From Deltaproteobacteria bacterium (GTDB lineage Bacteria; Desulfobacterota; Syntrophobacteria; Syntrophobacterales; Thermodesulforhabdaceae), in the NCBI GenBank assembly GCA_019309115.1, contig JAFDGW010000029.1, forward strand, positions 1 through 32,584: a DNA stretch of 32,584 nt, read 5' to 3'. Position 1 is the first letter of the stretch, and each line of letters starts with the position of its first letter. Under the pieces are notes generated by a model. That model had not been told where the DNA came from. It worked only from the letters and a program-made list of their open reading frames with translations, and made no database searches. This document shows positions 5,973-32,532 of the stretch, one piece after another. The position numbers and the translations under genes were made by a program.

Positions 5973-6365
5973 TTACGAAACCATAACCTTGACCCTACGA
6001 GTTCTGGGTCCGTCGAACTCGCAAAAAAATACGCGTTGCCATGTTCCGAGGCTCAGCTTGCCGTTATCTATTATGATTTGTACACTACTGCCCACCAGAG
6101 ATGCCTTAATGTGCGCTGCCGAATTGCCCTCTAGATGTTTATAGCCTGCACGCCATGGAACCAGTTTTTCAAGTGATTCCAGTACATCCTGCATTACAGC
6201 CGGATCGGCACCTTCGTTTATGGTAACGCCTGCTGTCGTATGAGGTACGTAGATCACACAAATTCCTTCGGAAACCCCGGATCGGGAAACAATGTTTTGT
6301 ACTTCTGAGGTTATGTCCACAGCGTCATTTCGTGATCGAGTTCTTACGGAAAACTCGCCTATCAT
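5973..6365 (-). CDS. YjbQ/UPF0047 family protein
   Basis: A 130-residue single-domain protein of the YjbQ (UPF0047) family, small beta-barrel oligomers; E. coli YjbQ has weak thiamine-phosphate synthase activity, but the physiological role is unsettled. Conserved blocks are HTTAGVTINEGADP (near 45-60), NSAAHIKASLVG (about 82-93) and GTWQRVFFCEFDGPR (about 108-122). The length is normal for the family. It starts 16 bases after the stop of the upstream 422-residue gene, so the two probably share a transcript. Confidence 0.88.
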   Translation of the reverse strand: MIGEFSVRTRSRNDAVDITSEVQNIVSRSGVSEGICVIYVPHTTAGVTINEGADPAVMQDVLESLEKLVPWRAGYKHLEGNSAAHIKASLVGSSVQIIIDNGKLSLGTWQRVFFCEFDGPRTRRVKVMVS

Positions 6366-6381: not shown

Positions 6382-7650
6382 TCAATCTGATGGAACTATC
6401 AGTCCCGAATCCAATCGACGATATCCTGGAAGCCCTTCCTCGTCAACCAAGTCTCTTTCTTTGGCTTCCGACATTTCTGGAAACAGTTCACCAAGCATTT
6501 CGGCAAGTTCTTCATCCATTTTGATCAGGGCGTTGATGGTATAGGAAATAAGAAAGTTTCTGATTGGGGATATTGATCCCTCTTCGCAGTGCTTCGCAAT
6601 GTCGTAAATGGTTCGAGCAATTGACTTTTCCTGGTCGTGAATAAACTTAACTGCATGAGCCTTCAAGTTAAGACCAAGCAGTTTCAATCTGCGAGGGTCG
6701 GCGTTTTCGAAAAATTCATTGATCACTTTTTCCACACGATAGCGTTTTGCATGAGCAGGGCTTTCGATCGGAGATTTCAACAAAGTAAGTACGTTGTTGA
6801 GTAGGTCTAGGGAGTCATTGTGATAGCCAAGTCTAAAGTATGATTTATTTTCTGTTAACTTACGGATAACCACCTGAGGATCTTCAGGTTCCACATCAGC
6901 AAGCACTTCAAGGAAATATTGGTCTCGGTTTTCTGGTACATGTGGAGCAAGCAATCTCTTAACTTCAAAAATCTTGGTTCTATCTCCGGGATCATAGCGC
7001 CCTTCGAAAATTTCCAAGTAGTCGTTGAAAATTACAGCTCCATGGTACATTGGAACACGGTACAAGTCGGCATGTTTGGTAATCTCATTTAGCATTTCTA
7101 GCACTTTTCGCTTCGAATTCCATACCCAGTAACAACCTAAGGTTGATTTGGTGGCGCTTTCCTCTACAAAGACCAGACCGGCGTCGTAAGTTAAACTGGG
7201 TTCGAAAAGAAATATCAGTCCATCCCAACCGGTGCCACTGTCAAGATGCACCATTGCTTCACCCGCGCAAACGTCTTCGTTTGGTATATCAATAAGCACT
7301 CGTTTCTCAGTTGATCCGGAACTTTTCGTTTCAGGGTCAAGGTTTATTCCTTTTTGCTTTAACCTAAATTCGGCCCTTTTAACCACTTTTACGTAAGGTT
7401 TTTCCGATATGGTATTGCGGAAATGTTTGAAAACTTCTAGTGAAGCTGGGGTCGGAGCTTTGCTTATCCTTTCCAGCAACGCCGCTCTAAGCCTTTCTTC
7501 TTCAAATCGTTTGGAAAGAGATTCTACGAACCTGGAAAATGACTCGCCTTCTGGATCCTGAACAGACAACCTATCTATTATACTTTCCAGTTCTTTTTCT
7601 TCTTCAGGGCTTACTTGAAGAGGTTCCGATTTCTTCTTTTTCTTGCCCAT
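6382..7650 (-). CDS. unrecognised 422-residue protein
   Basis: Not recognised. The start is placed at 7650 because AGGAGA precedes that ATG; a 37-codon extension to 7761 would run through the terminator hairpin at 7681-7715 and into the previous gene. The N-terminus is lysine-rich (GKKKKKSEP) and charged, residues 10-80 look helical or coiled, and the central part has alternating hydrophobic strands and aromatic residues (GCYWVWNSKRK). No signal peptide, transmembrane span or cysteine cluster is visible. It is followed 16 bases later by yjbQ. It lies only 31 bases beyond a strong terminator, so it depends on read-through or on a promoter overlapping the hairpin. Confidence 0.75.
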   Translation of the reverse strand: MGKKKKKSEPLQVSPEEEKELESIIDRLSVQDPEGESFSRFVESLSKRFEEERLRAALLERISKAPTPASLEVFKHFRNTISEKPYVKVVKRAEFRLKQKGINLDPETKSSGSTEKRVLIDIPNEDVCAGEAMVHLDSGTGWDGLIFLFEPSLTYDAGLVFVEESATKSTLGCYWVWNSKRKVLEMLNEITKHADLYRVPMYHGAVIFNDYLEIFEGRYDPGDRTKIFEVKRLLAPHVPENRDQYFLEVLADVEPEDPQVVIRKLTENKSYFRLGYHNDSLDLLNNVLTLLKSPIESPAHAKRYRVEKVINEFFENADPRRLKLLGLNLKAHAVKFIHDQEKSIARTIYDIAKHCEEGSISPIRNFLISYTINALIKMDEELAEMLGELFPEMSEAKERDLVDEEGLPGYRRLDSGLIVPSD

Positions 7651-7680
7651 ACTATTCTCCTGATGCACATCCTCTTCACT

Positions 7681-7744: not shown

Positions 7745-8950
7745 TTACTCCTTTGGTTCAATAATCAGTGAATCTGCAACCAATTCCCACAAGTATTTGA
7801 CCTCGATGCCAAGGTCATACTCTTTGCATAGGCTCTTCATAATCTGATCCCGGCAGTTATGGCATGGTGTAATTAATAGCTCGGCTCCGGTGTCCTTAAT
7901 CTGTTTTGCCTTAACTCTTCCGTAAAAGATCCTCTCCTCATTGTAAGGGGATGCCCAAGCTCCACCGCCGCCACCGCAACAGAAATTATTAGCTCTATTG
8001 GGGTTCATCTCCACAAAATTTTCACAACATTGCTGAAGAATCCAACGGGGTTCCTCATAATAGCCATGCCCGAAGGTTTTTTCACTCTTTCTACCGTAGT
8101 TACATGGATCGTGATAGGTAGTAAGTTGCGGGTGCTTTGACTTATCTACTTTTATACGTCCCTCTTCGAGGTATTGTTTCAGAAGGTCATGTACGCTCAG
8201 GTACTTAACGCCTTCATTTTTAAACCATTTCTCGAGACCAAACCTGGTCGCGTAATAAGCATGTCCTCATTCAGGCAGCAGAAGATACTCACATTCCAGC
8301 TCTTTGTAATTCTTTACAATCCTTCCGACTATTTCCTTCATTGCTTCGTCATCACCGGAAAAAAGCCCCCAGTTCACACCTTCCCAGTTTTCCGATGCAA
8401 CGGTCCACGATTCGCCAGCAGCGTAAAAGATTTTCCACCAGAAGGTCATATCTTCAGGTTCACCGAATGGCTCTTTTGAGTTTATTGTAACAAGTATGCG
8501 AGCTCCCTTCTCGTCAACGGGAACTTTAAAGCCCGGCAACTCCTCAGCGAGCTCTTCTCCTACATCTTCTAGAAGAAACAGGAAATCTTCCTTAGGGATA
8601 CCCAGGTTATTTCCGGTCTTGAGGCACATTTCGACGCCTTTGTGAAGTGTACCTGGCACCTGATCCCTGGGCCTCATCCATCGCGCCGACCGAATAAGAG
8701 TAAGCAAATCTACTCCCATTGGGCACGCATATTCACATCTTCCACACATTGTGCATACCCAGGGAAATTTTGAGTTGACGATTTCATCATCAAGCCCAAG
8801 AATAGCAAGTCTTACAATTTTACGAATATCCAACCCATCAACCCCTGTAACCGGGCATCCACCGGCACAGGTGCCACAGGTTAGACATCGTTCGGCGTAT
8901 TGGCTCGCCAGCTTACGGCGCTCCCTTTGTGTGAGCAGCAACGGTTCCAT
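7745..8950 (-). CDS. HdrD/GlpC-like iron-sulfur selenoprotein (UGA at 8267-8269 read as Sec)
   Basis: One 401-residue frame with a single internal TGA. Residues 1-90 carry two [4Fe-4S] ferredoxin motifs (Cys 22, 25, 28, 32 and 66, 69, 72, 76). The C-terminal half holds a cysteine-rich CCG domain: YHDPC at 283, CCGGGGG at 324-330 and PCHNC at 362-366, the CX~40CCX37CXXC pattern of HdrB/HdrD, GlpC and DsrK-type subunits. The TGA is codon 228 in LLLPE-U-GHA, where relatives have ECGH, so the stop replaces a cysteine and the frame continues with strong conservation for 173 codons. A SECIS-like hairpin follows. The protein probably moves electrons to or from thiol/disulfide or quinone-type substrates; the partner is unknown. 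GGGGGAGAGG precedes the ATG. Conventional gene calling would split it at 8267. Confidence 0.87.
8236..8249 (-). promoter_or_regulatory. SECIS-like hairpin downstream of the Sec UGA
   Basis: On the minus strand GACCA and TGGTC form a perfect 5-bp stem with a GGTT loop, starting 17 bases after the UGA and placing the loop 22 bases after it. Bacterial SECIS elements are small stem-loops at this distance with a G at the start of the apical loop, the contact for SelB. The stem can be extended with a 2-base bulge. The hairpin lies within coding sequence, as bacterial SECIS elements do. Confidence 0.65.
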
Positions 8951-12030: not shown

Positions 12031-12408
12031 TCAATGCGATATGGAATGACGGCACGTAGGGCAAAGCATGAGCCATGCGATTTTTTCATCGGCGAGACCG
12101 GTATCTTCCAGCCGTCTTATAATATATTTCAACATCATTTTCGGCGCGAAGAACCTACCGCAAGCCTCACATTCTGCCATTTCGAACCATAGCTTTACCG
12201 ATTTCTTCTCAGGTGTGTCGTTCGTTAGTGTGAGGGCGTGAGTTGGACAAATATCTACACACTTTGTGCATTGCATGTCGCAACCTGGAGGAAATTCCAC
12301 CGATATCTCGGATTCTGCTTCTTCGATCTTAATGTAATCCTCAGGGCATGCAAGAGAACATGCCCTACAGCCTATACATTTCTCTGAACTGACTATAAGT
12401 TTTCTCAC
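12031..12408 (-). CDS. small two-cluster ferredoxin with zinc-type C-terminal tail
   Basis: A 125-residue protein with one standard [4Fe-4S] motif (Cys 11, 14, 17, 21) and a second, slightly atypical one (Cys 43, 47, 50, 54, with CX3C spacing). A C-terminal part contains two CXXC pairs (80/83 and 116/119) separated by a helix, resembling a zinc ribbon or rubredoxin-like knuckle. It is the last gene of the formate dehydrogenase operon, starting 4 bases after the preceding ferredoxin gene, so it most likely carries electrons for that enzyme. No specific name is justified. Confidence 0.82.
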   Translation of the reverse strand: MRKLIVSSEKCIGCRACSLACPEDYIKIEEAESEISVEFPPGCDMQCTKCVDICPTHALTLTNDTPEKKSVKLWFEMAECEACGRFFAPKMMLKYIIRRLEDTGLADEKIAWLMLCPTCRHSISH

Positions 12409-12412
12409 CTTG

Positions 12413-12862
12413 CTACCTCACGGGTGAAAAAAAGCTAATCCTGGTTTGCTTTTCATAGGCTTCTATACTTTCGTAAACGATGGCGCCTGATGGGCAAGTT
12501 AAAGCACAGATCGGTGTTTTCCCATCCAGAACAAGGTGCTGGCATCCATCGCATTTAGACGGTTTTTGTTTTTCCACCATGGTTATTGCTCCAAATGGAC
12601 AGGCCAGTTCGCAAAGTCCACAGCCTGTGCACAGATTTTCGTCGATTATAACCATGTCTCTTTCATCATACCTAATTGCTTCCCTGTAGCACACATGAAT
12701 ACATGGAGCGACTTTACAGTGCCGGCAGGATACGGGCCACGCAATACACTCTGTCTCTACGACCGTTATCCTGCTTTGTCCCCCATGTTCCCTGGCACAG
12801 GCTACTTCACAGGCCCGACACCGAATACATCGCTCGGCACGTATGAGTAGTAACCTTTTCAT
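12413..12862 (-). CDS. HycB/HydN-like four-cluster ferredoxin subunit
   Basis: An electron-transfer subunit of the DMSO reductase beta-subunit type. All sixteen cysteines for four [4Fe-4S] clusters are present: 12/15/18/22, 46/49/54/58, 78/81/84/88 and 104/107/119/123. At 149 residues it is compact, close to HydN and HycB of formate hydrogenlyase systems. It lies 4 bases after the fdhF-like stop and 4 bases before the next ferredoxin gene, so it should be the direct partner of the catalytic subunit. There is no membrane anchor, which suggests a cytoplasmic complex. Confidence 0.87.
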   Translation of the reverse strand: MKRLLLIRAERCIRCRACEVACAREHGGQSRITVVETECIAWPVSCRHCKVAPCIHVCYREAIRYDERDMVIIDENLCTGCGLCELACPFGAITMVEKQKPSKCDGCQHLVLDGKTPICALTCPSGAIVYESIEAYEKQTRISFFSPVR

Positions 12863-12865
12863 ATC

Positions 12866-14890
12866 TTATACAACCTCCAACCGACATTCTGCGTCCTTAA
12901 ACCCCGGAGTCCTTGAGCTGGTATCTAGGCCTACCGTAACCACATCATTGACGCCAGGAAAATGGAAGGGAAGAAAAAGCGTTTTCGGGGGGACACTAAC
13001 ATCTAAACGAATTTGAAATATACCTTCACCCGATTCCCCTATTAGTTTTACTTCATCGCCGTTTTTCAAACCCAAAGCAGCTGCATCTTCTGGATTGATA
13101 GACACCGATGCTATCGGTTCGTAAGGAAAAAGTTCTGACAGACGTCTGCTCATTGAGCCTGAATTGTAATGAACGACTAAACGTCCGGTTATCAGTTTGA
13201 AAATGTTATTTTTTCCAATTTTTCCTTTATCCTCGATTGCGAATTGCGGAGTGTGAAACTTGAATCTACCGCTTTGATGCAGAATTGGCGTTCCGGGATG
13301 GCTTTCGTTCTGACATGGCCATATAAGTCCATTTTTACTCAATCGCAGGCGCTCGGGGGTAATACCCCCGTATTGCGGAACTACCCTATTTATTTCGCGA
13401 AGTATTTCATCCGGCCTCGGAGTATAACCCCATATTTTCAATCTTTTACCCAGTTCCCCAATAATCCACAGATCCGGTTTTGCATCTCCATCTGGATCCA
13501 GCGCTTTTTCCGACCATTGCACGCGCCGTTCGGTGTTCGTATAACTTCCTTCCTTTTCTGCCCAGCATGCCGCGGGCAAAAGGATATCCGCATATCGGGC
13601 AGTTTCCGTCATGAAGAGATCAATCACCAACAGAAACTCCAGCTTCTCTAGCGCCTTTTTCACTCCCGACGCTTCCGGATCCGATACCACGGGATTCTCT
13701 CCCAATATCACCATTGCTTTTATTTTTCCGTTTAATGAGGCATTAGTCATTTCTGTGACGGTGTAACCCGGGCCAAGCGGTAAATCCGATTTTTCCCAAA
13801 CTCTGCTTAGCTTTTTGAGTTCCATATGATTTGACGCGTCCGCATAGCCAGGAAGGTAATCTGCAAGCGCTCCCATATCGCAGGCACCCTGCACATTATT
13901 CTGACCTCGAAGAGGGAAAATACCAGACCCGGGAGCACCTACTTTCCCGCAAAGCAGTGCCAGATTTGCACATGCCCGAACATTTTCTGTGCCGTTCCTG
14001 TGTTGCGTAATTCCCATGCAATAGATAAGTGCTGCACTGTAAGCTTCAGCATAATAACAGGCAGCGGCCACAATTTCACGCTCGGACAATCCAGTGAATT
14101 TAACTGCTTCTTTAAGGTCGAAAGAATGCAACCACCGATATAAATCATCAAACCCCTCTGTTCGTTCTCTTACAAACTGATAATCACATAAACCTCTATC
14201 AACTATGACCTTCATCATTGCGTATAACAGGTATGGGTCCGATCCAGAGCGTAGCTGCAAGTGCAGATCGGCTATCCTGGTGGTGATTGTTCGTCGTGGG
14301 TCTGCGACTATAACCACGGCACCTCTATCTTTTGCATCCCATACCCACCTGCTGACGACCGGGTGAGTTTCGGCGAAGTTGGATCCCAAGACGAAGATAC
14401 AGTCGGAATTTGCCAGGTCCGAGATGGGATTCGTCATAGCGCCTGAACCAAGCATATCCTTCAGCGCAACGAGCGATGGAGCATGGCAGAGGCGTGCGCA
14501 GTGGTCAATATGAGGTGATCCGAACAGGCGAGCAAGTTTTTGGAACAGGTAAATTTCCTCATTGGTTGCCCGTGCCGACGCCAGAAAGCCGACGGAGTCA
14601 GCACCATATCGTTTTTTTATGTCTAAAAGCCTTTCCGCAGCAAGGTTGAGAGCATCATTCCAAGGTAATTCAATCCATTCATTTTCACTTTTTACCAGCG
14701 GGTGTTTCAATCGATCGGGATGTTTGACAATGGATATCGAGCTATTTCCTTTGGGACACAGTGCACCAAGAGCAACTGGGTGATCAGAAATGTATTCAAT
14801 GTTCAGGGAATTGCTTTTTGTAACTATAAAAAAAGCACATCCTGCTCCACAAAAAGGGCAAATTACTTTTGACTTGCTACCGGTCTTCAT
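12866..14890 (-). CDS. fdhF: formate dehydrogenase catalytic subunit, FdhF-like, Cys form
   Basis: Molybdenum/tungsten bis-MGD enzyme that should oxidise formate to CO2 or run in reverse. The N-terminal [4Fe-4S] site is Cys 11, 14, 18 and 45 with CPKG including Lys47. The active-site motif HCARLCHAPS puts Cys135 where E. coli FdhF has Sec140, followed by the conserved His136. The MGD-binding domains follow, with a C-terminal molydopterin dinucleotide-binding domain at about 560-674 (ITGRLVVHYNSGSMSRR). No Tat signal is present, so it is cytoplasmic. At 674 residues it is slightly shorter than E. coli FdhF (715). The ATG overlaps the upstream CooF-like stop by 4 bases. Another molybdopterin oxidoreductase function is possible, but the Cys-His motif favours formate. 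Confidence 0.88.
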   Translation of the reverse strand: MKTGSKSKVICPFCGAGCAFFIVTKSNSLNIEYISDHPVALGALCPKGNSSISIVKHPDRLKHPLVKSENEWIELPWNDALNLAAERLLDIKKRYGADSVGFLASARATNEEIYLFQKLARLFGSPHIDHCARLCHAPSLVALKDMLGSGAMTNPISDLANSDCIFVLGSNFAETHPVVSRWVWDAKDRGAVVIVADPRRTITTRIADLHLQLRSGSDPYLLYAMMKVIVDRGLCDYQFVRERTEGFDDLYRWLHSFDLKEAVKFTGLSEREIVAAACYYAEAYSAALIYCMGITQHRNGTENVRACANLALLCGKVGAPGSGIFPLRGQNNVQGACDMGALADYLPGYADASNHMELKKLSRVWEKSDLPLGPGYTVTEMTNASLNGKIKAMVILGENPVVSDPEASGVKKALEKLEFLLVIDLFMTETARYADILLPAACWAEKEGSYTNTERRVQWSEKALDPDGDAKPDLWIIGELGKRLKIWGYTPRPDEILREINRVVPQYGGITPERLRLSKNGLIWPCQNESHPGTPILHQSGRFKFHTPQFAIEDKGKIGKNNIFKLITGRLVVHYNSGSMSRRLSELFPYEPIASVSINPEDAAALGLKNGDEVKLIGESGEGIFQIRLDVSVPPKTLFLPFHFPGVNDVVTVGLDTSSRTPGFKDAECRLEVV

Positions 14891-15384
14891 TGGATATAGC
14901 CCTTCAAGTACTCTGTGATGGCTTCTTTTCTGACCATTTCGGAAAATTCATTTTCCTCTGTATAAACCAACGCGTTAGTGCGACAAGCCTCCACACACGC
15001 AGGAATTTCCCTATCGGGACATCTGTCGCATTTGACAGCAATTCTTCTTTCCGCTTCCTCGCCTATAACGCCGTAAGGACAAACCATGGCACACATCCAA
15101 CAACCAATGCATTTTTTTGGATCGTGGGTAACAACGCGGGTTACAGGATCCTGACTGAGAGCCCCGGTTCGACAGGCCTTTACGCATGGAGCATCTTCAC
15201 AATGCCGACACAAAAAAGGGATTTTGCGACCGGCTATATATTCCACATAAACCCTGCGCTTCGGTTTCGGAGTTTCATGTATAGCCAGTTCCAGCTTTTT
15301 GGCTTGAGAATGTTCAACAGCGCAGGCAAGTTCACAGCTGCGGCATCCGATGCACCTATCCAGCCTGACAAAAATTTCCTTCAT
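14887..15384 (-). CDS. CooF-like four-cluster ferredoxin, first gene of the fdh operon
   Basis: A 165-residue polyferredoxin with sixteen cysteines for four [4Fe-4S] clusters (11/14/17/21, 59/62/67/71, 92/95/98/102, 119/122/130/134). The spacing resembles CooF and HycB, electron-transfer subunits of CO dehydrogenase and formate dehydrogenase. It overlaps fdhF by ATGA and is the first gene of the operon, with GGGAGGAG five bases before the ATG. The context favours shuttling electrons for formate oxidation. CooF proper is normally beside CO dehydrogenase, which is not in this window, although cooC is about 9 kb away. Confidence 0.85.
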   Translation of the reverse strand: MKEIFVRLDRCIGCRSCELACAVEHSQAKKLELAIHETPKPKRRVYVEYIAGRKIPFLCRHCEDAPCVKACRTGALSQDPVTRVVTHDPKKCIGCWMCAMVCPYGVIGEEAERRIAVKCDRCPDREIPACVEACRTNALVYTEENEFSEMVRKEAITEYLKGYIQ

Positions 15385-24050: not shown

Positions 24051-24079
24051 TTGACGGAGCGAGAAAGTCTCAATAGGAT
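24051..24079 (+). promoter_or_regulatory. sigma-70 promoter of the cooC-pur-mur operon
   Basis: TTGACG (24051-24056) and TAGGAT (24074-24079) are spaced by exactly 17 bases, a good sigma-70 match. It drives the long plus-strand operon that starts at the TTG at 24126, with a leader of about 40 bases. This is why the upstream TTG at 24051 should not be taken as a start codon. Confidence 0.7.
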
Positions 24080-24125
24080 TAGCGCGCTTTTTAAGAGAAG
24101 AAAACCTGGAAAGGAGGAAATAACA

Positions 24126-24890
24126 TTGGGATACTTAGTATCGATTGGTGGCAAGGGTGGAACGGGTAAGACCACGGTTGCCGGGCTTTTAATTCGTTAT
24201 ATGCTAGAAAATAATATGAAGCCAGTGCTGGCAATTGACGCCGACCCGAATTCCAATCTTAATGATGTGCTGGGAGTAGAGATTACGACGACAATCTCCG
24301 ATGGGCGGGAGCGCATGAAAAAGGATGTTCCCACGGGCATGACGAAAGACGTGTTCATGGAAATCCAAATGGAGCAAGCGCTTGTAGAAGCGGACGGGTT
24401 TGATCTCATTGCAATGGGGAGGCCCGAAGGACCTGGCTGTTATTGTGCGGCAAATAGCATTCTCACGGAACTGCTGGACAGGTTGATGAACAACTATCCC
24501 TACCTGGTAATAGACAATGAAGCCGGCATGGAACATTTCAGTCGCCTTACGCAGAAGGACATCGATCTTTTATTGCTCGTCTCAGACCCCAGCAAAAGAG
24601 GACTTACTGCTGCCTGTCGTATTTCGCAACTTGTAAACGAGCTCCCCATAAAGGTTGGAGATCGTTACCTGATCGTTAACCAGGTAGTCACTCCCCCATC
24701 AAAATGGCCTCAGGAAGTGGTTGGTGCTTTTGGTGACAATATTGTAATACTCCCCGCTGATCCCCTTATTTCACAGTATGATCTTGAGGGAAAACCTACT
24801 TTCGAACTGCCGCCGGATTCAGAAATAGTACAGAAAAGCTGGCGTTTTTTTGAATCCGTTTTTGGCAACCAGAAGGGAGAGCGAAAATGA
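24126..24890 (+). CDS. cooC: CooC-type nickel-insertion / CO dehydrogenase maturation ATPase
   Basis: P-loop ATPase of the MinD/CooC family that helps insert nickel into the C-cluster of CO dehydrogenase or acetyl-CoA synthase. The deviant Walker A is [10 protein letters not shown] at 8-17, DADPN follows at 38-42, and the family-specific metal-binding CXC is GCYCAANS with Cys 105 and 107. The TTG at 24126 is the start: AAGGAGG lies 8 bases upstream and the resulting 254 residues equal the usual CooC length. No CO dehydrogenase gene is in the window. It is the first gene of the long operon and overlaps the purine gene by 4 bases, an odd pairing. Confidence 0.9.
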
Positions 24891-25483
24891 TTCGTATAAA
24901 AAGGGCTCTGATAAGTGTTACGGACAAAGGGGGACTGCCTGAGTTTGGAAGATTTCTTCAGGAGTCCGGTGTACATATTCTTTCAACTGGCGGTACGGCC
25001 AAGCTTTTGAGAGAAAGCGGTGTAGATGTTACCGATGTGTCTGACTATACAGGTTTTCCGGAAATCATGGACGGGCGAGTGAAAACACTCCACCCGAAGG
25101 TACACGGAGGCATACTTGCTATAAGGGATAAGGCCGACCATGCCAATGCAATGCGGCAGTTGAACATAGAGCCTATAGACATGGTGGTAGTGAATCTTTA
25201 CGCCTTCGAGGAAACAGTGGCAAAACCCGGTTGCAGCCTCGACGATGCTATAGAAAACATAGACATTGGAGGTCCAACGCTTATAAGGGCCGCAGCCAAA
25301 AACTTCAAGTACGTAGTCGTTGTAACAAGCCCTGACGATTATCATGTTGTGATGGATGAGATGAAGCGGTTTGATGGCCACGTATCGAGACAAACCAGCT
25401 TTTCATTGGCACAAAAAGCTTTCTGCCTGACTCACAAGTACGATGGTGCTATCTGTTCCTATCTGGAAACACAAAAGTTATGA
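24887..25483 (+). CDS. purH: stand-alone IMP cyclohydrolase (N-terminal half of PurH)
   Basis: Closes the ring of FAICAR to give IMP, the last step of de novo purine synthesis. The protein covers only the MGS-like IMPCH domain: [62 protein letters not shown], and [17 protein letters not shown], ending after [19 protein letters not shown]. The AICAR transformylase domain of ordinary PurH (about 310 residues) is absent and is not downstream in this operon, so that activity must be encoded elsewhere. It overlaps cooC by ATGA and precedes purD by 15 bases. Confidence 0.93.
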
Positions 25484-27322: not shown

Positions 27323-27957
27323 AGCCAAATCGAGTGGTTGTTCCATCTGATCCAGGTGTTCTTGAGCAGAACAGGGAAAAATGGCGAAAGTTGCTGGATC
27401 AAGGAGCCATTTTTGTTTTTCCTACGGAAACGTTATATGGAATTGGGACGTCGGCAAAACACGATAAGGGAGTGCTGAAGATTTTTGAACTGAAGGGAAG
27501 AAAACCGGATCACCCTCTGCCTCTCATAGCAGCCAACCCGGGTGCAGCTTTTTCCATGTGGAAAAACCCACCTGATTGGCTTGCAAACCTTGCCAGATCT
27601 TTTTGGCCTGGTCCGGTTACATTTGTTTTTCGAGCGTCTGAAAACGTTTCGCGATACGTTACGGGTGGACGTGGGACAGTCGGGATAAGAGTTTCGCCTC
27701 AGCCTATCGCCAGGCTACTTGCGGAGCTAGCAAGCGGAGCAATTATTGCCACAAGTGCCAACGTATCAGGAGGCGAACCTGTGCTCGAACCCGAGGAATT
27801 AAGCGAATCCTTTCGAAAGGGCGTGGACGTGATCATAGACGTCGGCCCTCTGAGTTCGAAGACCCCCTCGACCGTTGTTGACTGCACGATTTATCCTCCC
27901 AAGCTTATTCGAGAGGGAGTTGTGCCCTTTAGTGAGATCCTGAAGGCTCTGACATGA
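27319..27957 (+). CDS. tsaC: YrdC/Sua5 family L-threonylcarbamoyladenylate synthase
   Basis: Makes threonylcarbamoyl-AMP for the t6A37 modification of ANN-decoding tRNAs. The conserved pieces are AIFVFPTETLYGIGTSA, ELKGRKPDHPLPLIAAN, a FWPGPVTFVF strand, GTVGIRVSPQP and ATSANVSGGEPV. At 212 residues it is a TsaC-type single domain without the Sua5 C-terminal domain. It overlaps purE and the MurG-like gene by 4 bases each. YciO-like proteins are an alternative, though the KGR and SAN motifs support TsaC. Confidence 0.9.
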   Translation: MKPNRVVVPSDPGVLEQNREKWRKLLDQGAIFVFPTETLYGIGTSAKHDKGVLKIFELKGRKPDHPLPLIAANPGAAFSMWKNPPDWLANLARSFWPGPVTFVFRASENVSRYVTGGRGTVGIRVSPQPIARLLAELASGAIIATSANVSGGEPVLEPEELSESFRKGVDVIIDVGPLSSKTPSTVVDCTIYPPKLIREGVVPFSEILKALT

Positions 27958-30068
27958 TAACCCTGATTACAGTAATAGCGGCCTTGTACGTTATGGCCTT
28001 TCTGGCCTTTCGTGTTGTTGGATTGGTAAAAGAGAAGCGGGGAAAACCTCCTCTTGTGATACTAGCTGGTGGAGGTACGGGAGGGCACGTTTATCCACTG
28101 CTTGCTATTTATGAAGAAATTGCAAAGCGGCACCCTAACTACCGCTTCCTTTACATTGGCGTTCCTAACAAGGCAGAATCGCACATTGTTCCACGTGAGG
28201 GAATTGAACTCTGGTACACGTACTCAATCGGCTATCCGGGCCTGAAAAATCCAATTATTCTAGCAAAGTTCCTCATAATTTTGCTCGCCGGAAGTTTAAA
28301 ATGTGCCATCAAATTCACCATCGAACAGCCTAAATATTTGGTATCCACTGGAGGTTACGTTAGCGCTCCGGCCATTGTGGCAGCAGTTGTGCTGCGAAAG
28401 GTCTTCCGTATCAGGATTGGGATATTTCTACACGAGCAGAACACCGTACCAGGGCAGCTCAATCATTTTTTTGGTAGGTGGGCTGATATAGTATTTGTAA
28501 GTTTCAGGGAAACCATGTCTTTCTTCCCGGAAAACGGTGTTTTTTCAGGCTATCCTGTAAGACGGCGGGTTCAGGAAATGCTGAGCCGGTCGGAAGAGAA
28601 TTCGGCAATTTCCGTTCCTCACGGTAAAAAAGTGGTGTTCGTTTTTGGTGGATCCCAGGGAGCAAGGACGATCAACAGGGCTCTTGTTGATGCCATCCCG
28701 TACCTGTACCCTTACAGAAAGAAGATTTTTATTATTCATGGTCGCGGACTTGCCCGCACGGAAGAATACGATGCCGTAAAGGATACAGAAGATCGTATTT
28801 CGCGTCTGGATGATGAGATAAAAAAGGAATTGGAGTCCTTTTATTACAGTCAAGCCTATTTTCACAACATTGGAGCAGTTTACAGGATTGCCGATCTGGT
28901 TGTTGCGAGAAGTGGTGCCGGAACTCTGAATGAAATAGCGGCCTTGGGTAAGCCAGCTTTGCTGATTCCTAAAAGCGGGCTTCCGGGAGACCATCAGGTG
29001 ATCAATGCCAGAGCGATGAAAAACGCTGGTGCAGCTCAGGTGTTATACGAGGACGTCAGAAGGGAACCGGACGGCAGGGTTGTTGAATTTGTTGACGGTC
29101 AGACGTTAGCATCTGCCATTTTGAGGCTTTTACAAGATCCGTCGTTATTGTCGTCAATGGCCGTTGCGGCAAAGTCTTTCTTTCGGGGAAATGCCGCTGA
29201 AACTATCGTGGATTGCATTGATTATCCGTCAAAAGCAAGGGATTTGCATAAAAGCTCCGTTAAACTGTCTCGCTTGAGTGTGGAAAGTTTGCCTTCTAAC
29301 GATCGAGTTCTGAAGTTGTTGTCCATCAATTATTCGGAAAATCCGGAAACCTTTAACCCCTATCAGGTTTTTGACCCGGAGGATGTGGAGTACTTTCGTT
29401 ACCGTGCCGTTAGGTTGCTTTATCATCCAAAGTGGCAGATTCGCAACGTAGGGGTTAAGCTCGTGGGGTATTTGCTGCACAGGGATAAAGTCTCCGAGAT
29501 TCTTCGTATGATAACAGATAGAACCCCAGTCTCGCTATGGCTAAGGTTGCTGGGGGGCGACTATCGGGAGGTTGGTTTTATCAGACGGAACAGCATTAGG
29601 GCGTTGCAAATTATGGATATCTTTAACGCGGATGTGGAGGAGGCTCTAATGATAGCAATTGATGACCCATATTATGAGGTTCGCTCTGAAGCGTGTAGGG
29701 CTGTGTGTCACTTTTCGAACAAGCTTGCCGGTAAAGACAAGTGGCTTCAAAAAATTCTTGAAAGGTTTAACGATCCATCATTTGAAGTTGTTTGTGAAGC
29801 GGCAAAGGCGATGGGTTATATTGGCATAGACGGACGGGCGGTGGAAGCGCTCTTACAGTTCGCAATGCACCCTCTTTGGCAGGTTCGTTATGCTGCGCTT
29901 CTTGGCATCCTGCGCCTTTTAGAACGTAGAGTTATCTGTCCCTGCGACGGTTTGGTAGAGCGGCTTGGATCTTTTATATTAACGTCAACGGATTTTGTGC
30001 CGCACTTTCGTTTGAAGGAAACGTACAGACAGATAGTATCACTTTGTGGCACTACGTGTGATGAGTAA
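27954..30068 (+). CDS. MurG-like glycosyltransferase fused to HEAT-like C-terminal domain
   Basis: Residues 1-25 form a transmembrane anchor. Residues 33-425 form a GT28/MurG fold with the main donor and acceptor motifs: GGGTGGHVYP (39-48), TGGYVSAPA (132-140), HEQN (160-163), GGSQGA (232-237), RSGAGT (319-324, canonical RSGALT) and GDHQVINA (345-352). Family members transfer GlcNAc from UDP-GlcNAc to lipid I. Residues 455-704 are an added helical, HEAT-like region with repeats around DPEDVEYFRYRAVRLL, DDPYYEVRSEACRAV, NDPSFEVVCEAAKAMG and HPLWQVRYAALLGIL. Ordinary MurG is about 360 residues, so this 704-residue fusion is unusual. A longer charged insert (269-295) also differs. It is followed after 12 bases by the MraY-like gene. 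Confidence 0.87.
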   Translation: MITLITVIAALYVMAFLAFRVVGLVKEKRGKPPLVILAGGGTGGHVYPLLAIYEEIAKRHPNYRFLYIGVPNKAESHIVPREGIELWYTYSIGYPGLKNPIILAKFLIILLAGSLKCAIKFTIEQPKYLVSTGGYVSAPAIVAAVVLRKVFRIRIGIFLHEQNTVPGQLNHFFGRWADIVFVSFRETMSFFPENGVFSGYPVRRRVQEMLSRSEENSAISVPHGKKVVFVFGGSQGARTINRALVDAIPYLYPYRKKIFIIHGRGLARTEEYDAVKDTEDRISRLDDEIKKELESFYYSQAYFHNIGAVYRIADLVVARSGAGTLNEIAALGKPALLIPKSGLPGDHQVINARAMKNAGAAQVLYEDVRREPDGRVVEFVDGQTLASAILRLLQDPSLLSSMAVAAKSFFRGNAAETIVDCIDYPSKARDLHKSSVKLSRLSVESLPSNDRVLKLLSINYSENPETFNPYQVFDPEDVEYFRYRAVRLLYHPKWQIRNVGVKLVGYLLHRDKVSEILRMITDRTPVSLWLRLLGGDYREVGFIRRNSIRALQIMDIFNADVEEALMIAIDDPYYEVRSEACRAVCHFSNKLAGKDKWLQKILERFNDPSFEVVCEAAKAMGYIGIDGRAVEALLQFAMHPLWQVRYAALLGILRLLERRVICPCDGLVERLGSFILTSTDFVPHFRLKETYRQIVSLCGTTCDE

Positions 30069-31911: not shown

Positions 31912-32532
31912 ATGAGTTCAATGTTGTTAAGTGCACAGCAAATAAAAGAGCTTTTTGGTATTCACAGGAACACTCTGCTGAAATGGGAGAAGGGGGGTCT
32001 TCTACAACCTGTAAGGACGCCGGGTGGTAGGAGAAGGTATAGGAAAAAAGATATAGAGAAGCTACTTGGGATTTGTGAAGAAGAGATAGAGAAAGCTGAT
32101 GTAATTTTGTATGCACGTGTATCAACAAAAAAGCAGAAAGAGTATTTAAGGAATCAGATTGAAAGACTTGAATGCTTTGCAAGGGAGAAAGGTTGGAATT
32201 ACGAAGTAATCTCAGAAATAGCAAGCGGAGTTAATGAAAAGAGGGGAGGTTTAAAGAAGCTTTTAAACAAAGTTAAAAGAGGAGAAGTTAAAAAGGTAGT
32301 GATTGAATATCCTGATAGGTTAGCGAGATTTGGTTATGAGTATTTGAAGTTTTTCTTAGAAAGTTCTGGAGTGGAACTTGTAATAGTTAATGGAAAAGAA
32401 AATGAAGAAGATAGACACAGAGAACTTGCTGAGGATTTAATAGCTATAGTGACTTTCTTTGCAGCAAGAATTTATGGTTCTCGTGAAGGGAAAAAGAGAA
32501 ATGATAACTCTTTCATGCAAACTGGAGTTTAA
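31912..32532 (+). CDS. tnpA: IS607 family serine recombinase TnpA
   Basis: Site-specific recombinase that mobilises the element. A MerR-type helix-turn-helix occupies residues 5-50 (AQQIKELFGIHRNTLLKWEK, then TPGGRRRYRKKDIEKLL). A small resolvase domain follows, with YARVSTKKQ containing the catalytic Ser71, and the arginine-bearing YPDRLARFG near 153-161. At 206 residues it matches IS607 orfA. Another start at the ATG three codons later (31921) is possible; neither has a strong ribosome-binding site. The gene overlaps tnpB by 32 bases. Confidence 0.94.
   Translation: MSSMLLSAQQIKELFGIHRNTLLKWEKGGLLQPVRTPGGRRRYRKKDIEKLLGICEEEIEKADVILYARVSTKKQKEYLRNQIERLECFAREKGWNYEVISEIASGVNEKRGGLKKLLNKVKRGEVKKVVIEYPDRLARFGYEYLKFFLESSGVELVIVNGKENEEDRHRELAEDLIAIVTFFAARIYGSREGKKRNDNSFMQTGV

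Follow-up and report, generated by a model that had tools for sequence, protein, structure and literature searches.

A reading frame that breaks off at a UGA codon and then continues through conserved codons raises two questions, namely whether the gene is intact and, if so, what its product does. Such a frame lies on the minus strand at positions 7745..8950 of a 32,584-nucleotide contig stretch (hereafter the window) from a deltaproteobacterium of the Thermodesulforhabdaceae. Here, we describe the evidence that the UGA is read as selenocysteine (Sec), then consider the fold and cluster ligands of the predicted protein and the gene neighbourhood of its relatives. The iron-sulfur protein probably reduces disulfides as one arm of an electron-transfer complex by which sulfate-reducing bacteria save energy.

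A conserved frame with one in-frame UGA

The frame starts with an ATG at 8950, ends with a stop codon at 7745-7747 and holds, as the preliminary description had claimed, a single in-frame TGA at 8267-8269. Read through this codon, the product has 401 residues, with Sec228 in the motif E-U-G-H (within LLLPEUGHAYYA). The frame continues for 173 codons beyond the TGA, and Pfam finds the CCG domain there intact, again as claimed. Another in-frame TGA is located upstream of the ATG, so that the frame opens near the proposed start. A plain ORF list contains only a 227-aa fragment ahead of the UGA (8267-8950).

This breakage by a standard ORF caller, which sees two fragments, is what speaks for the simplest alternative, in which the UGA really does end translation and the gene is either a pseudogene or affected by a sequencing error. 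The codons found at this site in relatives argue against it. Codon 228 is TGA in every examined homologue of at least 65% identity, as well as in several homologues at 55-60% and several paralogues at about 40%, with TGC in the remainder. Among 78 GTDB loci, which are those covering the site and partly overlap the first homologue set, the codon is TGA in 53, TGC in 22 and TGT in three, and no other codon occurs. An orthologue with exactly one TGA is present in dozens of the 98 genomes around the window's own, and the same TGA thus recurs in dozens of assemblies and in several families; with these independent assemblies taking the place of raw reads, a sequencing error is excluded in practice. 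Residue 228 is invariant as Cys or Sec in two alignments, and aligning the ECGH site, as had been suggested, gave Cys or Sec in every homologue examined. The accompanying claim that relatives have the Cys of ECGH where this gene has TGA stands for homologues in general, but the nearest relatives have UGA as well and the Cys versions are more distant. On the tree, at least nine changes between Sec and Cys are needed (by a quick method, with several forks open).

Compared with the relative L015, the codons ahead of the TGA show 113 synonymous and 13 non-synonymous differences, and those behind it 80 and 21, respectively, which indicates purifying selection on both sides of the codon, including the part beyond the supposed stop. 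On the conservation of the TGA and the selection after it we reject a pseudogene or sequencing error, the chance of which is negligible.

Downstream hairpin and selenocysteine machinery

A bacterial SECIS-like hairpin had been proposed downstream of the UGA, and it lies where it was claimed to be: GACCA-GGUU-UGGUC (8236..8249, minus strand, hence read from 8249 to 8236) begins after 17 intervening bases and occupies +18 to +31 after the UGA. The full stem is formed by 51 of 56 distinct Sec sequences, versus one of 31 distinct Cys sequences. The hairpin sequences represent two registers of one hairpin, and the comparison is even-handed because the better register was used for both groups alike. 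Several pairs of the stem show G-C/A-U/C-G exchanges, with loops of the GGCU/GGUU or G-N-N type; in L073, L074 and L077, for example, compensatory changes give AACUA/UAGUU in place of GACCA/UGGUC. The Cys gene L053 encodes the same ATRYGL residues as the Sec genes L047, L049 and L054 and has lost the stem through synonymous changes. A single-sequence folding test based on synonymous codons is weakly significant (Sec mean z -1.8, median P 0.07) and some Cys genes (L051, L052 and L057) score in it too, and for these reasons we use the covariation count, and not folding energy alone, as evidence. No Rfam family matched at its gathering score within the window.

The same genome encodes SelA, SelB (as its C-terminal domain), SelD and, on contig C70, a tRNA-Sec with anticodon TCA, so that all four of the genes selA, selB, selC and selD, whose presence had been named as a check, are found; ARAGORN detects no tRNA within the window itself. 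The genome's selD gene (L011, G000:C9:36673-37593) has one in-frame TGA of its own, and SelD is therefore probably a selenoprotein itself.

These findings also bear on the idea that Trp or some other residue is inserted at the UGA, through a change of the code or general read-through and without Sec. We reject it as very improbable, since the alternative at the site is always Cys and never Trp, the hairpin is confined to UGA genes (apart from the single Cys sequence counted above) and the genome has complete Sec machinery. The gene is almost certainly a selenoprotein gene with Sec inserted at UGA 228, and this reading appears to be about as strong as sequence evidence permits.

Protein family, fold and cluster ligands

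The Pfam domains of the product are Fer4_8 and CCG. Domains and alignments together indicate an HdrD-like protein, composed of an HdrC-type ferredoxin part (8711..8896, minus strand) with two 4Fe-4S motifs (C22, C25, C28, C32 and C66, C69, C72, C76), followed by two CCG domains, of which the C-terminal one is encoded at 7841..8119 (minus strand). The best NCBIfam scores are 218 bits for HmcF, 187 for TmcB and 174 for DsrK, far below the respective cut-offs of 750, 735 and 400, and the two models for GlpC of the anaerobic glycerol-3-phosphate dehydrogenase score 36 and 23 bits (cut-offs: NF008369, 278 bits; TIGR03379, 279.9 bits). The initial label of an HdrD/GlpC-like protein is thus apt as a statement of relationship but fails as one of membership in any of these curated families.

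The AlphaFold model (pLDDT 91, pTM 0.89), for which structural matches were also sought with Foldseek, superimposes on EtfD with a Z score of 25.0 over 371 residues (rmsd 3.0) and on HdrB with Z scores of 18.7-19.9. In EtfD of Mycobacterium smegmatis (PDB 9ojn), the cluster of the first CCG domain is bound by C503, C538, C581 and C584, and that of the second by C637, C672, C673, C709, C712 and H583 (PMC13083937). Profile alignment to EtfD pairs U228 with C581, H230 with H583, A231 with C584 and W182 with C538; the place of C503 is poorly aligned, and N157 is our guess from strand positions. The five cysteines at the ligand positions of the second noncubane cluster (C283, C324, C325, C363 and C366) are all invariant. 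The ligand set is accordingly complete in the second CCG domain, whereas in the first it is gone except for the Cys or Sec at position 228. The protein thus shares with EtfD the fold, the five cysteines of the second domain and the His at the H583 position, and differs from it in being predicted to be soluble and in having lost the other ligands of the first domain.

Gene neighbourhood and detached operon

The role of the protein, left open in the preliminary description, can be given a specific proposal from its conserved gene neighbourhood. Counting the window, there are 21 orthologue loci of at least 79% identity. In 16 of them the gene comes immediately after hydB-hydG, in the same orientation, and FeS, mvhD and hdrA precede that pair, except that the contig of L144 stops short of hdrA-mvhD. 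Most of the 16 operon-linked loci continue downstream with a gene for an unknown protein and one for a YjbQ-like protein, the latter name being our reading of the sequence. The window retains this pair with unchanged order and comparable spacing (6382..7641 and 5973..6365, both minus strand), but has an RluD-like gene upstream. The protein encoded at 6382-7641, whose gene lies comparably far downstream in many relatives, has no Pfam or NCBIfam match and diverges fast (24-32% identity). Paralogues of 62-68% identity show another order, in which the gene lies directly ahead of hdrA-mvhD, in agreement with the published five-gene operon glpC-hdrA-frhD-frhG-frhA of S. fumaroxidans (PMC1794560).

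In this genome, contig C72 carries a ferredoxin-type gene, fdhA, hdrA (1064 aa), mvhD, FeS, a hydB-like and a hydG-like gene. This operon ends after hydG, the next gene being unrelated and on the other strand; it contains no copy of HdrD, and HdrB and HdrC subunits were not found in it either. The selenoprotein gene has thus become separated from the operon, and the proposed partnership rests on the relatives, in which an operon of the Flx-Hdr type, joining hdrA to partner genes of the NAD(P)H and Fe-S types, is found; the one in this genome is on a different contig. No such operon was seen beside the gene in L044-L046, L065, L146, L147, L156 and L159. From the conserved operons, the protein is in all likelihood a subunit of an HdrA-MvhD complex. 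The genome also contains DsrC and a DsrMKJOP-like cluster, which makes a sulfate-reducing life style likely.

Two other assignments have to be weighed. The protein might be an electron carrier of the HmcF/TmcB/DsrK type that feeds DsrC from a membrane complex instead of serving HdrA-MvhD, as could be argued from the best family scores, from the ECGH motif (with Cys) in the genome's own HmcF-like and DsrK-like proteins, and from the gene being unlinked to the operon here. The scores fall far short of the cut-offs, however, the genome has separate genes for the HmcF-like and DsrK-like proteins, and orthologues are part of soluble HdrA operons, so that we consider this improbable. Alternatively, the protein could serve the Wood-Ljungdahl pathway, as part of a complex linked to MetF or CODH, instead of a complex that reduces DsrC. 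In one family (L045 and L065) the gene does lie near MetF-like, CooC-like and HmcF-like genes, but the gene names in L045 are our sequence reading and not the result of a profile search, and most orthologue loci adjoin hydB/hydG-hdrA-mvhD; this, too, seems rather unlikely.

Several further features were noted along the way. In L045, an HmcF-like gene (6496-7671, minus strand) that adjoins the selenoprotein gene also has a UGA at its ECGH site and a hairpin of its own. Within the window, the region 12031-15384 (minus strand) encodes a second formate dehydrogenase alpha subunit (674 aa, TIGR01591 above cut-off, no in-frame UGA) together with small ferredoxin-type genes, another FdhA-like gene being that of the C72 operon. 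A CooC-like ATPase gene followed by a PurH-like N-terminal gene (24051-25483, plus strand) resembles a pair that L045 and L046 carry next to the selenoprotein gene. The window also encodes, upstream of a MraY-like gene, a fusion of HEAT repeats to a MurG-like glycosyltransferase (family 28 N and C domains; 27954-30068, plus strand), and the contig end carries a resolvase with an N-terminal MerR-type helix-turn-helix (31912-32532, plus strand), as in IS607-type transposases.

Proposed role and mechanism

Taken as a whole, the observations are very likely best explained by a Sec protein that acts as the disulfide-reducing arm of an HdrA-MvhD complex. In the proposed model, SelB and the short in-gene SECIS hairpin would insert Sec at UGA 228, and the protein would serve as the equivalent of HdrBC in a soluble, flavin-bifurcating complex. 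Electrons from NAD(P)H, via the HydB/HydG-like subunits, and/or from formate, via FdhA, would pass through MvhD and the HdrA flavin to the two ferredoxin-type clusters of the selenoprotein and from there to the noncubane cluster in the second CCG domain, the proposed site of reduction of a disulfide, which is most likely the one in DsrC. We slightly favour a disulfide or DsrC as the substrate.

Among the closest described systems is FlxABCD-HdrABC (Ramos 2015, cited in PMC10553843), to which the operon is likened by description. Both combine HdrA with subunits of the NAD(P)H and Fe-S types, and Flx-Hdr complexes are described as linking NADH, ferredoxin and DsrC, with electron transfer between the three proposed (PMC10553843). 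The operon described here differs in that one HdrD-like selenoprotein takes the place of the HdrB and HdrC genes, and in the presence of mvhD and, in this genome, fdhA.

As Sec228 stands in for a ligand of the first CCG cluster, which has been lost, it is proposed to face the remaining cluster, where it would either capture the other half of the split disulfide or ligate a cluster iron. That it is a direct partner of the cluster is a tentative suggestion. More doubtful is the full version of this idea, in which Sec228 would functionally replace the entire first noncubane cluster, a single noncubane cluster and a selenolate splitting the disulfide between them (or the selenolate ligating a cluster iron); the complex would be Flx-like, with a reductase arm encoded in trans in this genome. 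To our knowledge, an arrangement of one noncubane cluster and a selenolate has not been described for HdrB.

Relation to known selenoproteins and significance

The preliminary description was right not to present the class as new. A selenoprotein family of Fe-S oxidoreductases (GlpC) was predicted in 2006, with three GlpC counted (PMC1794560), and a 2026 review lists it with the motif UGH, PTHR43551 and WP_174406253.1, its function being largely uncharacterised (PMC13188914). Likewise, HdrD4 of Desulfobacterium autotrophicum contains Sec (PMC2702500), and by this description it resembles the present protein as a soluble, HdrD-like selenoprotein. The gene is therefore an added member and not a new class. 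Matched by motif and domains and not by a reference sequence, it shares with the GlpC family the UGA at the UGH site, the Fe-S oxidoreductase build of Fer4 and CCG and the occurrence in deltaproteobacteria; the 62-68% paralogues share also the position beside hdrA-mvhD, whereas in the present orthologue group the gene comes after hdrA-mvhD-FeS-hydB-hydG, and in this genome it is linked to none of them. Our literature search found no paper joining selenocysteine with DsrK, and the sole match for selenoprotein and 'CCG domain' concerns methanogens. What is added here is the operon assignment, its breakage in this genome and the ligand argument.

On this proposal, a largely uncharacterised selenoprotein family would gain a definite place in soluble HdrA-MvhD complexes, whose reductase arm it would form. 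With Sec standing where a cluster ligand has been lost, the protein would offer a testable mechanism, in which one cluster and a selenolate split a disulfide, and annotation pipelines that truncate the frame at the UGA would report HdrA-MvhD complexes without their reductase subunit.
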